In this document: positions 27,668 to 61,554 of the stretch, in pieces
How the letters are laid out: each line of letters begins with the position of its first letter
How positions within the stretch are numbered: the stretch's first letter is position 1
Assembly: GCA_003223645.1 (NCBI GenBank)
Contig: QHVT01000005.1
Location: 1 to 64,000, forward strand
DNA from: Acidobacteriota bacterium
Lineage (GTDB): Bacteria > Acidobacteriota > Thermoanaerobaculia > Gp7-AA8
Direction: 5' to 3'
Length of the DNA stretch: 64,000 nucleotides
Notes under the pieces: model-generated
What the model was told of the DNA's origin: nothing
The model's database searches: none
The model's input: the letters and a program-made list of their open reading frames with translations, nothing else
Translations under genes and position numbers: made by a program

Positions 27668-30600
27668 ATGCCCCTCTCCCGATTTCACCCCGTCATCCAA
27701 CGCTGGTTCTCGGAGACCCTCGGCGAGCCGACGCCCGCGCAGCGGCAGGGGTGGGCGGCGATTCGCGAGCGCAAGCACGCGCTGATCGCGGCGCCGACCG
27801 GCTCCGGAAAAACGCTCGCGGCGTTTCTCACCGCGCTCGACGATCTCTTCGTCGAAAGCCTGCAGGCACCGCTGCCCGACGAAGTGCGCGTCGTCTATGT
27901 CTCGCCGCTGAAGGCGCTGAGCGCGGACATTCACAAGAATCTCGCCGAGCCGCGCAAAGGAATCCGGCGCATCGCCGAAGAAATGGGACTCGATGCGCCG
28001 CGCATTACCGCGGCCGTGCGCACGGGCGATACGACGCAATCCGAGCGCGCGGCGATGCTGCGCACGCCCCCGCACATCCTCGTCACCACGCCCGAGTCGC
28101 TCTACCTATTGTTGACCGCGGAGAAAACGCGGCAAATGCTGCGCACCGCGCGGACGGTGATCGTCGACGAGATTCACGCCGTGATCGGCACGCGCCGCGG
28201 CGCGCACCTCGCGATCACGCTGGAGCGATTGCAGCAGGTCGCGGAGTCGCCGCTGCTGCGACTTGGATTGTCGGCGACGCAGAAGCCAATCGAGGATGTG
28301 GCGAAGTATTTAGTAGGCGCGACCCCTCATCCGCCCTTCGGGCACCTTCTCCCCGCAAGCGGGGAGAAGGGCAACTTGGGAGCAGCGTCGTTTGTGGCCC
28401 CTCGCCCCGCTTGCGGGGAGAGGGTGGCCGAAGGCCGGGTGAGGGGCGTCGTCATCGTCGACGAAGGCCATCGCCGCGCGATGGATCTCGCGATCGAGGT
28501 CCCGCGCTCCGCGCTCGAGCCGGTGATGGCGCACGAAGTGTGGGAAGAGTATTTCGATCGCATCACCGCGCTCATTCACGAACATCGCACGACGCTCGTG
28601 TTCGTGAACACACGCCGCATGGCCGAGCGCGTCGCGCGCCATCTCAGCGATCGCCTCGGCGAAGACGCCGTCACGGCGCATCACGGCAGCCTGTCGAAAG
28701 AGAAACGCCTCGACGCCGAGACGCGCCTCAAGAACGGACAGCTGAAGGCGCTCGTGGCGACGGCGTCGCTGGAGCTCGGCATCGACATCGGTTACGTCGA
28801 TCTCGTCTGCCAGATCGGATCGCCGCATCGCATCGCGACCTTGCTGCAACGCGTCGGACGCTCGGGTCACACCGTGTCCGGCACACCGAAGGGACGCGTG
28901 TTTCCGGTGTCGCGCGACGATCTCGTCGAATGCGTCGCGCTGATGCGCGCGATCAAAGAGGGGGAGCTCGATCGCATCGTCGCGCACGAAACGCCGCTCG
29001 ACGTGCTCGCGCAGCAGATCGTCGCGGAGTCGGCGTGTGCGGACTACACCGAAGACGAGATGTTCGCGCTGATGCGCCGCGCGTGGCCCTATCGCGATCT
29101 CGCGCGCAAAGACTTCGACGATGTGCTGAAGATGGTGGCGGACGGATTCGCGACGAAGCGCGGACGCCGCGGAGCGCTCGTGCATCGCGACGAAGTGAAC
29201 GCCGAAGTACGCGGACGAAGAGGATCGCGCATGCTCGCGATCACGAGCGGCGGAGCGATCCCCGAGGTTGCGGACTATCGCGTGATCCTCGAGGGAGAGG
29301 ACACGTTCATCGGCACGCTGAACGAAGACTTCGCGATCGAGAGCAACGCCGGCGACATTTTCCAGCTCGGCAACGCGTCGTGGCTGATCCTGCAGGTAAC
29401 GAGCGGCACGGTGCGTGTCGCCGACGCGAAAGGCGCGCCGCCGACGATCCCGTTCTGGCTCGGCGAAGCGCCCGCGCGCAGCGACGAACTGTCGCGCGCG
29501 GTAAGCGAATTGCGCGTCAATCATTCAACACTGGTCGACGACGGCATTCCCGAAGTTGCCGCAACAGAGATCACCAACTACTTCGCCGAGTCCCAACGCA
29601 TTCTCGGCGAATTACCGACGCAGGACACGCTCATCGCCGAGCGTTTCTTCGACGAGTCGGGCGGCATGCAGCTCGTCATTCATTCGACGTTCGGCAGCCG
29701 CATCAACCGCGCGTGGGGACTCGCGCTGCGCAAGCGATTCTGCCGGCAGTTCAACTTCGAGCTGCAAGCGGCGGCAACGGAAGACGCAATCCTGCTCTCG
29801 CTCGGCCCGCAACATTCGTTTCCGCTCGCCGACGTCTTCCGCTATCTGCATCCGGCCACCGCGCGCGATGTGCTCGTGCAGGCGATGTTCGACGCGCCGG
29901 TGTTTCAGACGCGCTGGCGCTGGAACACGACGATCTCGCTGGCCATCCCGCGCAATCGCCACGGACGCAAGATTCCGCCGCAGCTGCAACGCGCGATGGC
30001 CGACGATCTGATGGCCGCTGTGTTCCCTGATGCAGCCGCGTGTTTCGAGAACATCGCCGGCGATCGGCAGATCCCCGATCATCCGCTCGTCAATCAAACG
30101 GTGCGCGACTGCCTCGAAGAGGCGATGGACTTCGACGGACTCGCGAGCGTGCTGACGCGCATTCACGACGGCACGATCCGCTGCATCGCGCGCGACACGC
30201 CCGAGCCGTCGCCGCTCGCGCACGCGATCCTCACCGCCGCGCCGTACGCATTCCTCGACGACGCGCCGCTCGAAGAGCGCCGCACGCAGGCCGTCTACAC
30301 GCGACGTGCATCGGGCTCCGACGACGTCGGCAAGCTCGATCTCGCGGCGATTGAGCGCGTGCGCGACGAAGAGAGTCCCGATCCGCGTGACGCCGACGAA
30401 TTGCATGACGCGCTGCTCACCGCGTCGTTCCTCACGGACGACGAAGCGTCGCAACTTCCGCGCGAGCTGTTCGACACGCTCATCGCATCGCGACGCGCGA
30501 CGCCCCTCGTCATCCCGAGCGTAGCGAGGGACCTGGGCGGGCGGGGCGCGTTGCACGAGCCTCGTGGTCCGGATTCCTCGGTCACGCTCGGGATGACACT

Positions 30601-40350: not shown

Positions 40351-40490
40351 GCCCCTCACCCGGCCCATCGCTCGCTCAGGGCCACCCTCTCCCCGCAAGC
40401 GGGGCGAGGGGCAACAACACGAATATCGAGATTTGTGGCCCTTCGCCCGCTTGCGGGGAGCAGGTGTCGCGAAGCGACGGATGAGGGGCG
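40351..40490. repeat. CCCCTCACCC...GGATGAGGGG element
   Basis: A 140-base copy of the element seen in lhr at 28323, with inner CCCCGCAAGCGGGGCGAGGG and CCCGCTTGCGGGGAG stem-loops. It is intergenic, and GGTTGCG-type short repeats flank it on both sides (40313-40350 and 40495-40555). No gene is supported in 40313-40616. Confidence 0.85.
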
Positions 40491-54975: not shown

Positions 54976-55984
54976 GGAAGCGATTGCGAATGAAGATCAG
55001 GGCGACGACGCCTGCGATCATGGAGACGAAGACCGCGAGCGCGAGTTGTGTGTCTTGGAGATGCTTGAACAGCGGAGCATCGGCCGCGATGAGCGCGTAA
55101 ATGAATCCGTAGAGCACGAAGGATTCAGCGCGCCGCCGGAAGCCCCACCAGATCACGAGCAGCGCGAACGCGAGCGCGAGGACGCAGCCGAGGTAAAAGG
55201 TCTCGTCTTCGCGGAGCAGCGACAGCGAGCCCCACAAAGTGAGATTCGCGGCAAAGTGCTCGAAAACGCGAAGGAATTCACGCCCCTCATCCGGCCTTCG
55301 GCCACCTTCTACCCGCAAGCGGGGAGAAGGGCCACCCTCCCCTTCGTCGCCCCTCGCCCCGCTTGCGGGGAGAGGGTGGCGCGGAGCGCCGGGTGAGGGG
55401 CCGAGCGTGACACGATGAAGTTGCCGCCACCCGAGCACGAGTCCCGCCGTCACGAACGCGCGCGGCGCAAAGTCGTCGGAGAAAATCAACGCGCTTCGCT
55501 CGATCCCCATCCATGCCGCCAATGCGCTGATCGACAGCGACAGCAGCATCCGCGATCGATACGCATACGCGCCCGCTCCATGCAGCACCGCGAGAATCAA
55601 GAAGTGCCTCGGCCACGCGTGGTCGAGCAGATGAAACTGCGCCTCGATGAATGCGAAGTCGCCGCTGAGGAGGAGCGCGCCGAGAAGGAGGACATAGTCG
55701 TCGGCGATCGTCGCGCGTGTGCGGCGCCACCAGACCCACGCGTAGCACGCGATCGCCGCGAGCGCCATCAGCATTGCCAGCGCGACCGGGCCGATGCGAT
55801 CGAGGTTGTTCTTCAGCACGATGCCGGCGGCGGTGGCGAGCAGCATCGCGCCGGCCCACGCGGCGATGCGCAGCTCGGGATAGAGCGAGAAGACTTCGCG
55901 GCGCTCGCGCGCGATCAGCGCATCGGCGCGGATGTCGCCGAGGGTGGGGCGAAGCTGGTCGATCTCTATTTCGAGGGAGAGCAC
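54959..55984 (-). CDS. DUF2157-like membrane protein with repeat insertion
   Basis: A 341-residue protein that begins with a short soluble N-terminus (LRPTLGDIRADALIARERRE) and has about 8-9 helices (AWAGAMLLATAAGIVL, DDYVLLLGALLLSGDFAFIE, FLILAVLHGAGAYAYRSRML). A CCCCTCATCC-type element at 55282-55401 adds about 40 hydrophilic residues (RHPLPASGARGDEGEG) in a loop. The start GTG 55984 has no clear ribosome site. It heads a two-gene operon with the next membrane protein. Confidence 0.68.
   Translation of the reverse strand: MLSLEIEIDQLRPTLGDIRADALIARERREVFSLYPELRIAAWAGAMLLATAAGIVLKNNLDRIGPVALAMLMALAAIACYAWVWWRRTRATIADDYVLLLGALLLSGDFAFIEAQFHLLDHAWPRHFLILAVLHGAGAYAYRSRMLLSLSISALAAWMGIERSALIFSDDFAPRAFVTAGLVLGWRQLHRVTLGPSPGAPRHPLPASGARGDEGEGGPSPRLRVEGGRRPDEGREFLRVFEHFAANLTLWGSLSLLREDETFYLGCVLALAFALLVIWWGFRRRAESFVLYGFIYALIAADAPLFKHLQDTQLALAVFVSMIAGVVALIFIRNRFHERRT
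55282..55401. repeat. CCCCTCATCC...GGGTGAGGGG element inside DUF2157-like gene
   Basis: A 120-base copy of the family at 28323, with inner CCCGCAAGCGGGGAGAAGG and CCCCGCTTGCGGGGAGAGGG stems. It is in frame in the membrane protein gene. Confidence 0.88.
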
Positions 55985-58881: not shown

Positions 58882-60534
58882 GTGGCGACGCTGACGAATC
58901 GCGAACATTTTCCGGCGCTCGTGATCGGGACGGGGATCGCCGGCCTCACGACCGCGTTCTCGCTGGCGAGCGCGGGACTCAAAGTGCTGCTGGTGACGAA
59001 GGCGACGGATCCGGCGGACTGCAACACCGCATGGGCGCAGGGCGGGATCATTTATCAGGGCGAGAACGACTCGCCGGACAAGCTGGTGCACGACATCCTC
59101 CGCGCCGGCGCCGGAATCTCGAACGAAGAAGCGGCGCGCTTTCTATCCGAAGAGGGCCCGAAGGTCGTGAAGACGCTGCTGCTCGACGAGATGCACGTGC
59201 CGTTTTCGACGGCCGAAGGCGAGCTCGATCTGACGCAGGAAGGCGCGCACTCGACGCCGCGCATCATCCACGCCGGCGACGCGACCGGACGCGCGATCGA
59301 GACGACGCTGCTCAATCGCGTGAAGGCGGAGCCGAACATCACGCTGGCGACGAACATCACCGCGATCGATTTGCTGACGACGCATCACCATCCCACCGAC
59401 ATCCAGGTTCGCTATCGCCTCACGAACGAATGCCTCGGCGCGTATCTGCTCGACAACAAGACGAACGACGTCTTCACCGTCTTTGCCGATTACACCGTGC
59501 TCGCCACCGGCGGCGTCGGCCAGATCTATCTGCACACGACCAACACGCGCAGCGCGATCGGCGACGGCGTGGTGATGGCGCATCGCGCGGGCGCGCGGAT
59601 CATGAACGCGGAGTACGTGCAGTTCCATCCGACCGCGCTTGCCGATAAAAAGGCAAACCACTTTTTGATCTCGGAGGCTTTACGCGGTGAAGGAGCGCGG
59701 CTCCGCAATCAGCGCGGCGAATACTTCATGGAGCGCTATGCGCCCGATCTGAAGGACCTCGCGCCGCGCGACATCGTGGCGCGCGCGATCGTCGAGGAGA
59801 TGACGCGCAGCAAGGACGAATTCGTCTACCTCGATCTCGCGAATTTCTACAACGGCCACCAGCCGCCGCACGAGCGCTTCCCCAACATCTCCAAAGCCTG
59901 CAAGGACCTCGGCGTCGACATCGAGCGCGATCCGATTCCGGTCGTTCCCGCCGCGCACTACTTCTGCGGCGGCGTGCTCGTGAACACGGCGGGCGAGACG
60001 ACGCTGAGCCGCCTGTATGCGATCGGCGAGACGTCGTGCTCGGGTCTCCACGGCGCCAACCGCCTCGCGTCGACGTCGCTGCTGGAAGGACTGACGTGGG
60101 GTTACTACGCCGCGCAGTCGATTCTCGCGAAGCGCTCGAGCGCGTCGAGCAGCGCGTCGCCGGCGGTGCACCGCGCGTTCTCATCCATGGGCGCGGGGAC
60201 GGGCACGGTGCCGCTGGCGATTCTGCAAACGGTGCCGGACTGGCAGGCGCCGGGAAAAGAGAATCGCGAAGATCCCGCGCTCATCCTGCAGGACTGGACG
60301 ACGATCCAAAACACGATGTGGAACTACGTCGGCATCGTGCGCACGGTCGAGCGCCTCAAGCGCGCGCTTTCCGATATGCAGCACCTCGGCTCGCGCCTGA
60401 CGAAGTACTACCACGAGTCGATGATCAGCAAGTCGATCGTCGAGCTGTTTCACGGACAGCAGATGGCGACGATCGTTTCGCAGGCGGCGATTCGGAATCC
60501 GCGGTCGATCGGGGCGCATTTTCGGAAGGATTAG
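58882..60534 (+). CDS. nadB: L-aspartate oxidase
   Basis: A 550-residue flavoenzyme that oxidises L-aspartate to iminoaspartate, the first step of NAD synthesis. The FAD-binding start is VIGTGIAGLTTAFSLASAGL, and CNTAWAQGGI, HSTPRIIHAGDATG and EALRGEGARLRNQRGEYFM are typical. The C-terminal helical domain is present. The start is GTG 58882, 26 bases from the divergent M28 gene, so promoters must overlap the first codons. nadA and nadC are not in the window. Confidence 0.93.
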   Translation: MATLTNREHFPALVIGTGIAGLTTAFSLASAGLKVLLVTKATDPADCNTAWAQGGIIYQGENDSPDKLVHDILRAGAGISNEEAARFLSEEGPKVVKTLLLDEMHVPFSTAEGELDLTQEGAHSTPRIIHAGDATGRAIETTLLNRVKAEPNITLATNITAIDLLTTHHHPTDIQVRYRLTNECLGAYLLDNKTNDVFTVFADYTVLATGGVGQIYLHTTNTRSAIGDGVVMAHRAGARIMNAEYVQFHPTALADKKANHFLISEALRGEGARLRNQRGEYFMERYAPDLKDLAPRDIVARAIVEEMTRSKDEFVYLDLANFYNGHQPPHERFPNISKACKDLGVDIERDPIPVVPAAHYFCGGVLVNTAGETTLSRLYAIGETSCSGLHGANRLASTSLLEGLTWGYYAAQSILAKRSSASSSASPAVHRAFSSMGAGTGTVPLAILQTVPDWQAPGKENREDPALILQDWTTIQNTMWNYVGIVRTVERLKRALSDMQHLGSRLTKYYHESMISKSIVELFHGQQMATIVSQAAIRNPRSIGAHFRKD

Positions 60535-60715
60535 CCCCTCACCCGGCGCTCCGCGCCACCCTCGCCCCGCGAGCGGGGCGAGGGGCCACCACCCCTCGCC
60601 CTTCTCCCTGTCTGCCGAGGAGAGCGGGCATCCTGCCCGCCTCCCGGGGGCGGGCGGGACGCCCGCTCTCCTCCTTGCGGGGAGAAGAAGGTCGCCCAAG
60701 GCCGGATGAGGGGCG
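60534..60715. repeat. nested repeat: CCCCTCACCC element containing a second palindrome
   Basis: The outer element has CCCCTCACCCGGCG and GGCCGGATGAGGGG at its ends. Within its second arm sits another palindrome at about 60621-60675, GGAGAGCGGGCATCCTGCCC with GGGCGGGACGCCCGCTCTCC. The outer arm continues after it (CTTGCGGGGAGAAG). The nested one therefore came later. Confidence 0.85.
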
Positions 60716-60729
60716 TGATAATTCGCAGA

Positions 60730-61554
60730 ATGGACGCTCTGCCCAAAATCGGATTCGGCGGGATGCCTTTGTCGATCAAAGGGCGGCCGCCGGAAGACGT
60801 CGCGCGACGCGTATTGAATGCGGCGATCGATGCGGGAATGACGTTGATCGACACCGCCGATGTGTATTGCCTCGACGATGACGACATCGGGCACAACGAG
60901 CGCTTGATCGCTTCGATCGGCCAGCGCGACAAGATTCGTGTCGCGACGAAGGGCGGGTTGGCGCGGCCGGGCGGCGCGTGGGTGAATGCGGGGAACCCGC
61001 AACAGATTCGCGCGGCGTGCGAGCGGAGTTTGCGTGCGCTGCAAACGGAGCGGATCTGGCTGTATCAGTTTCATGCGCCGGATCTGAAGGTGCCGTTCGA
61101 GAAGAGTATTGAAGCGTTTGCGGAGCTGCATCGCGAAGGAAAGTTCGAGCACTTCGGCTTGAGCAACGTGTCGATCGAGCAGCTCGATCGCGCGGCGCGC
61201 ATTCTTCCGGTGGCGTCGGTGCAGAACCGATTGAGTCCATACGCGCGCGAGTCCGTTCCGATCGCGCAGGAGTGCGCGCGTCGCAACATTCTCTTTCTCG
61301 CCTACAGCCCGCTCGGCGGCTCGCGGCTCGCGAAGAAGCTGCACGAGCTCGCGCCGCTGCGGCGCATCGCGGAAACGCGGGGCATTTCGGTGCAGCAGGT
61401 CGCGATCGCGTGGACGCGCGCGCAGGCGGCGACGGTCGTTCCGATCCCCGGCGCACGCTCGGTGGAGCATGCCGTCGACTGCGCGCAGGCCGCGGGTCTC
61501 GATTTAACGAGTGACGAGTTGAATTTGCTTTATTCTTCGCGCGGAGGAATCTGA
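60730..61554 (+). CDS. aldo/keto reductase
   Basis: A 274-residue NADPH-dependent reductase. The catalytic set is D-Y in LIDTADVYC, K in VATKGG and H in YQFHAPD; GLSNVSIEQL and VPIPGARSVEHA bind the cofactor. The substrate is unknown. ATG 60730 is used because longer starts run into the repeat element. The gene ends 7 bp before speA, so the two are probably one operon. Confidence 0.9.
   Translation: MDALPKIGFGGMPLSIKGRPPEDVARRVLNAAIDAGMTLIDTADVYCLDDDDIGHNERLIASIGQRDKIRVATKGGLARPGGAWVNAGNPQQIRAACERSLRALQTERIWLYQFHAPDLKVPFEKSIEAFAELHREGKFEHFGLSNVSIEQLDRAARILPVASVQNRLSPYARESVPIAQECARRNILFLAYSPLGGSRLAKKLHELAPLRRIAETRGISVQQVAIAWTRAQAATVVPIPGARSVEHAVDCAQAAGLDLTSDELNLLYSSRGGI

Follow-up and report, generated by a model that had tools for sequence, protein, structure and literature searches.

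How does one palindromic repeat come to lie inside another, which of the two arrived first, and what could have moved it? The question is raised by a repeat composite of 179 bp, at 60535-60713 of the window, which is the whole stretch of 64,000 nucleotides that we analysed from an Acidobacteriota genome. The composite is intergenic, with a nadB-like gene and an aldo/keto-reductase-like gene on either side. The first-pass annotation had described, in the interval 60534-60715, a palindrome (about 60620-60676) that interrupts the second arm of another repeat. This interruption is real, and the limits given for the interval and the palindrome are correct within a few bases. The features of the locus are the following:

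58882..60534, + strand: nadB-like gene (L-aspartate oxidase; name from reading the translation), whose stop codon abuts the outer repeat; matched in 8 of the 8 relatives searched.
60535..60585, + strand: outer unit A, intact, with tag CCCCTCACCC, hairpin 1 (GGCGCTCCGCGCC) and hairpin 2 (CTCGCCCCGCGAGCGGGGCGAG); from the sequence and a palindrome search.
60592..60616, - strand: outer unit B (inverted), distal part, which is the hairpin 2 strand as far as the tip; from alignment to the empty composite L010.
60617..60673, no strand: inner element, a 57-bp palindrome; from the palindrome search and the arm pattern.
60619-60671, no strand: 53-bp core of the inner element, made of a GGAG-tagged REP (ATCCT type), a short spacer and an inverted REP (GTCCC type); from the arm pattern and pair extraction.
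60674..60713, - strand: outer unit B, proximal part, with the second strand of hairpin 2, hairpin 1 and tag CCCCTCATCC (on the + strand, GGATGAGGGG); from alignment to the empty composite.
60706..61554, + strand: aldo/keto-reductase-like gene (name from reading the translation), downstream; from the translation and relatives.

The outer repeat consists of two inverted CCCCTCAYCC units. In each unit, two hairpins, one small and one larger, accompany the CCCCTCAYCC tag. The inner palindrome has arms at 60617-60644 and 60646-60673 (28 nt, 89% complementary) and splits unit B at the loop of its main, larger hairpin. In the predicted fold of the whole composite, the inner palindrome would cap the end of an outer stem.

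The inner element belongs to an abundant family. Its arm pattern (up to 3 mismatches) has 100+110 matches in the genome of 6.38 Mb, against 5+7 for the reversed-pattern control. Among the matches listed, 71 loci hold 59 complete inverted pairs and 15 single arms; these loci were drawn from 100 of the arm places, with later contigs under-sampled. The 53-bp core is present in 44 of the 59 pairs. The arms are hairpins with loops of 3 nt, and the bases that close the loop covary: 74 of 118 arms have G..C and 44 have A..T, with no mixed case, under a search pattern that permitted mixed bases. Beyond the GCTCTCC end, the first base outside the element is T at 63 of 68 ends. These two counts, and the comparison of core types below, use a curated list with 26 nested loci. 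As in REPINs, doublets outnumber single arms (59 vs 15 among the matches listed), and two inverted REPs with a short spacer fold as one hairpin (59 pairs; the fold of the window copy is predicted). The tag of the arm is GGAG, and the GTAG/GTGG tetranucleotide found 5' of the hairpin in canonical GTAG REPs is absent. Membership of the CGTC REPs was also rejected: GTCCC or ATCCT forms the loop region of the hairpin, and not an end tag. Beyond this genome, the inner pair occurs in at least 101 stretches of named genomes, with proteobacteria, verrucomicrobia, planctomycetes, chloroflexi and acidobacteria among the matches listed. Longer relatives of the inner element exist at L062, L072, L079, L097 and L101, with extra GGGC-RTCYY-GCCC-like hairpins between the GGAG ends.

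The outer family is abundant too. Its tag pattern (up to one mismatch) gives 60+69 matches in the genome of the window and 1+1 in the control. Three of its composites in the window are empty, that is, without the inner element:

28323..28446, - strand: empty outer composite; from the outer pattern and alignment.
40352..40490, + strand: empty outer composite, more diverged; from the outer pattern and alignment.
55283..55400, - strand: empty outer composite; from the outer pattern and alignment.

Further empty copies were found at L010-L012. The inner sequence is then not a constant part of the outer repeat, which is what the first-pass annotation said would have spoken against nesting. We also compared arms and tags in 60 genomes (the genome of the window and 59 relatives). 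Inner arms are absent from G002 and G008, where the outer tag occurs 98 and 104 times. Three other relatives are rich in the inner and poor in the outer: G010 (232 arms, 1 tag), G011 (31 and 1) and G017 (26 and 2). As far as these genomes go, inner and outer are independent families. Palindrome and outer repeat might still be read as one family whose long version is the nested form, and they do often occur together (25 of 60 copies). This reading is hardly credible to us, given the outer-rich genomes without the inner, the inner-rich ones nearly without the outer, and the inner copies that lie inside genes, away from outer repeats. The same-genus relative G001 has 0 inner arms, and 1 outer match vs 2 in its own control. 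The element would probably have multiplied in the lineage of the window after the split from G001.

Nesting is recurrent. The flanks align to the empty outer composite (summed score of at least 45) in 25 of 60 inner copies (the 59 pairs and L008). As a control, 300 random places at 200-57000 of the window gave a median of 32, a 95th percentile of 42, a 99th percentile of 110 and a maximum of 183. The high control scores probably come from the three empty outer composites in this stretch. In 16 of the 25 nested copies, the right junction is close to the loop of hairpin 2 (about 79), at 76-84 of the empty composite of 114 bp; in the other 9 it lies away from the loop, as aligned. For the left junction, 8 nested copies have it at 75-82 and 7 at 36-42, where the other unit has its corresponding loop. 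So the tip position recurs in many copies. Among loci L228-L247 of the relatives, a small sample, no nested copy was seen.

The inner is more uniform than the repeat around it. In ten nested copies, its identity is 98.3%, against 88.4% for the outer arm over aligned bases and 73.5% counting gaps. These ten come from 18 nested copies; seven without a recognisable outer arm end, and L080, were left out. In the six full-length nested copies, the values are 99.4% for the inner and 90.1% (84.9% counting gaps) for the outer. This greater uniformity makes the inner probably the younger of the two. The first-pass annotation had proposed that the outer was already there when the inner moved, and this order gains support from the empty outer copies, the independence of the families and the uniformity of the inner.

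The number of insertions is a different matter. Spacer identity is 79-89% among L004, L005 and L007 and 86% between L001 and L002, compared with 48-70% for most other pairs of the eight examined. The copies with related spacers may descend from one composite, or may be separate insertions into related outer copies. Consequently, the count of nested copies is not the number of independent insertions. It could be that one or a few nesting events were followed by spread of the outer-inner-outer composite, so that most nested copies are descendants. The related spacers favour this, and so do the cores: 18 nested 53-bp cores are all of the A/G type and 97.7% alike, compared with 91.8% for 26 free cores. 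Conversion among inner copies could also mask a common origin. Nevertheless, the inner is 98% alike while the surrounding outer arms reach 88% over aligned bases, spacers and junctions vary between groups, and the A/G type is also that of 17 of the 26 free cores. We consider the spread of composites unlikely as the main process.

The flanks of the element were compared in copies that a loose outer pattern sorted into 29 nested and 30 free ones. Direct repeats of at least 5 nt between the flanks occur in 7 of the 30 non-nested copies (23%), against 21% of mismatched flank pairs. Hence, the direct target-site duplication for which the first-pass annotation suggested looking does not rise above background. 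A MITE of a DDE transposase was rejected on the same result, as direct target-site duplications were not above the control. Inverted flanks behave differently from their control: a score of at least 16 is reached by 3 of the 30 free copies (L063, L064, L083) and by none of 180 mismatched controls. In the purH copy (L083 = L116, around 2340-2470), the left flank repeats 11 bp of the right one in inverted orientation and is absent in 4 of 4 relatives. An inverted target duplication is possible there. At L063 and L064, the inner lies between short tandem repeats, and those on one side of it are inverted relative to those on the other.

These flanks bear on an explanation without any transposase, in which the insertions arose during replication, through template switching or fold-back copying at palindromes already there. 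It would account for the hairpin-tip placement and the inverted flanks. The lack of direct duplications above control, the three free copies with inverted flanks where the 180 controls have none, and the inverted purH flank that the four relatives lack would all fit. On the other hand, a conserved 53-bp unit stands at unrelated places, 27 of the 30 free copies stay below an inverted-flank score of 16, and the inner co-occurs with one clade of RAYT transposases. We therefore regard fold-back copying as very improbable as the general origin, although it may account for single copies.

The co-occurrence with RAYT genes was followed in named genomes and in relatives. A Y1-transposase match was found at 9 of 101 palindrome loci of the named genomes, which had been picked only for the palindrome. 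In six of these nine (L141, L203, L127, L202, L155, L168), the Y1 gene has inner-type REPs on either side, no farther away than 900 nt; L192, L147 and L208 lack this arrangement. In a tree of 14 Y1 proteins, midpoint-rooted and read without taking branch support into account, the six REP-flanked proteins group with genes of G009, G010 and G016. Inner-type REPs flank RAYT genes in several relatives and named genomes, which span several phyla, and they are associated with this one clade in both.

The relatives give a second view of the same association. We searched 18 of them with the G009 protein. The cut for the clade (E < 1e-40) was set after seeing a gap between 1e-42 and 3e-25. With this cut, the clade is present in 8 of the 8 relatives with at least 20 arms (G005, G009, G010, G011, G014, G015, G016, G017), which are not independent, since three come from genus g5 and two from g9. 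It was found in 0 of the 10 relatives with 2 arms or fewer, counting G007 as uncertain. G007 has one arm, and beside it (L329, G007:C30) a partial clade RAYT runs into the contig end, which is the reason for the uncertainty. This piece may be a complete gene truncated in the assembly, or a remnant, and G007 possibly has the gene with almost no arms. The total number of Y1 genes does not track the number of arms; only the clade does. Likewise, 11 of the 22 clade-type loci have a loose REP motif no more than 500 nt away on one side or both (L292 is a poor match), compared with 1 of 20 other Y1 loci. Searching with the G009 protein gave these 22 loci: the G007 piece, and 21 whose matches have E < 1e-32. 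Near the other 11, some of which stand at contig ends, no REP motif was found; among the motifs that are present, several are variants.

The genome of the window breaks this rule. It has 166 arms, and no clade gene was found in an assembly that is 96.67% complete. Its only Y1 gene found (L009) is a distant outgroup in the tree of 14 proteins. A RAYT flanked by inner REPs in the same genome, as for REPINs, was not found among its genes, and so we call the element REPIN-like and do not file it as a REPIN member. The L009 gene (1236-1965; G000:C4, about 52.9-53.6 kb) is flanked by a third palindrome family (GGAGCGGCGCCCGCTTCGGGCGCCG...), and part of this palindrome encodes the C-terminus of the Y1 protein. 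At L288 (G009:C39), another Y1 gene stands amid GTAG-containing palindromes (GTGTAGGACAGGCTTTCCAGCCTGTCC). It suggests that several repeat-transposase pairs may coexist in the bacterial family.

Our preferred explanation, which we judge likely, is that the inner is a GGAG-tagged, non-autonomous REPIN-like element, spread as single-stranded DNA by the RAYT of this clade and inserted at the main-hairpin loop of the older outer repeat without direct duplication. The clade transposase (RAYT-type, Y1, HUH) would be the mover, and its substrate would be single-stranded. The element would insert into a pre-existing and unrelated repeat, where the loop of an extruded hairpin, being single-stranded, could be an accessible target. 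The transposase would once have been present in the genome of the window, and would then have been lost or lie within the roughly 3% that is not assembled. Outer-inner-outer composites may also be copied as units. Several points count against this explanation. The tag is GGAG instead of GT[AG]G, and in the genome of the window, with its 166 arms, the one Y1 gene found is the distant L009. Total Y1 counts do not track the arms, the relatives are not independent samples, and G007 may have the clade gene with almost no arms. In addition, half of the clade-type loci show no REP motif nearby, and 9 of the 25 nested copies have their right junction away from the loop. More tentatively, and with more doubt than confidence, we suggest a target rule. 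A single-strand transposase would prefer the unpaired loops of extruded hairpins, so that elements stack tip on tip, leave the host hairpin or reading frame intact and sometimes produce an inverted duplication, as in purH.

The kind of element is already known; its placement at a hairpin tip and the orphan population are the parts of interest. In the sections available of PMC3116915 and PMC8266576, the REPINs of Pseudomonas fluorescens SBW25 and E. coli are REP doublets that form hairpins and go with RAYT/TnpAREP. The inner shares with them the inverted REP pair, the short spacer, the hairpin, the high copy number and the RAYT genes flanked by the same REPs. Unlike them, it has GGAG in place of GT[AG]G, many copies in frame within genes, and no cognate RAYT found in the genome of the window. 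The TIRYT/TIRtrons, as far as the available text of PMC3733652 describes them, are Y1 transposases flanked by non-GTAG repeats, and include a sharply defined acidobacterial group. Here also non-GTAG repeats flank a Y1 transposase and form dispersed dimers; the likeness is one of organisation, and the inner might belong to one of the published TIR families. REPs are known to serve as targets of insertion sequences, according to the part of PMC1525189 available, and Pseudomonas putida has composites of GTAG-1 with unrelated stem-loops (PMC3733652). In these cases, going by the same available text, a palindromic repeat is likewise the target or partner of another element, whereas in ours a REP pair is the guest, and it occupies the tip of the hairpin that hosts it.

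We found neither a GGAG-tagged REP family nor a REP pair at the tip of another repeat in the open-licence literature, for which the tag was not a query term. The string 'ggag' is absent from the text of PMC6006769, and 'ggagag' from that of PMC3733652. The portions available of PMC12306157 and PMC8049555, which had no term match, hold nothing decisive on the inner. It has an unusual tag and an unusual landing place for a known kind of element. It also extends the REPIN-like elements to a family with a non-canonical tag, present in several phyla, whose copy number follows one RAYT clade in the bacterial family. As the arm count goes with the clade, the mobilisation of REPs by RAYTs, an open question, could be tested by natural presence and absence. 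The repeated placement in hairpin loops suggests a concrete target rule. Moreover, the genome of the window looks like an element population that outlives its own transposase.

Inner copies also lie inside genes. Of 40 loci outside outer repeats, 16 have the element in frame within a gene, 15 by coding-frame reading and hisD by homology. Half of these 40 were picked by eye for coding-looking flanks (15 in frame, hisD included), and 1 of the 20 others is in frame. Over the 71 extracted loci, at least 16 are in frame, so most inner copies may be extragenic. The coding-frame classification left out L069, L072, L085 and L088. It also missed hisD (L115), where homology places the element in frame. 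The PEP synthase copy (L117) is not counted, because the family matches start just after the element. Translation runs through the inner with no stop codon, which adds peptides such as EESGRPARPxxAGGTPALL.

Among ten proteins scanned, family models span the element in purH, hisD, PBP1A, metG, an NRPS adenylation domain and the E1 gene. The element is absent from 18 of 18 orthologue segments of the PDH/BCDH-E1-like, purH, PBP1A-type, YyaL-like (name from reading) and hisD genes. In the YyaL-like and hisD orthologues, other residues occupy its place, and in metG it lies within a variable linker. Against solved structures, the best phmmer alignments of purH and hisD gap or break at the element. 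The copies in purH, hisD and the PBP1A-type gene show a route for adding peptide segments to housekeeping proteins. In-frame REPs are already known from O. terrae and R. conorii, as are the Rickettsia palindromic elements (available parts of PMC3733652 and PMC10969869), so this is not a new phenomenon. These too are palindromes translated in frame within known genes, and their dimers add 20 to 30 residues. The inner differs from them in sequence family and host; the R. conorii ones are CGTC repeats without a known transposase in the text available.

The genes around the window copy have a different order in relatives. In 6 of 6 relatives with a close orthologue of the aldo/keto reductase, nadB was not seen upstream of it. 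From the other side, nadB is followed by a gene different from that of the window in 5 of the 5 nadB loci inspected (8 genomes matched). Because the neighbouring genes differ, the relatives offer no true empty site for the window copy. The junction between nadB and the aldo/keto reductase may be a rearrangement at the repeat. One of the five loci (L345, G010) has an inner-type arm about 1 kb downstream of nadB. The genes after nadB at L342-L346 are varied, and in 3 of the 5 the gene is methyltransferase-like (from reading). A promoter or terminator role of the repeat was rejected, as no consensus site is present. Finally, the ATG of the longest open reading frame of the aldo/keto-reductase-like gene (60706) falls within the outer tag, and the in-frame ATG at 60730 fits the N-termini of the relatives better, by eye.
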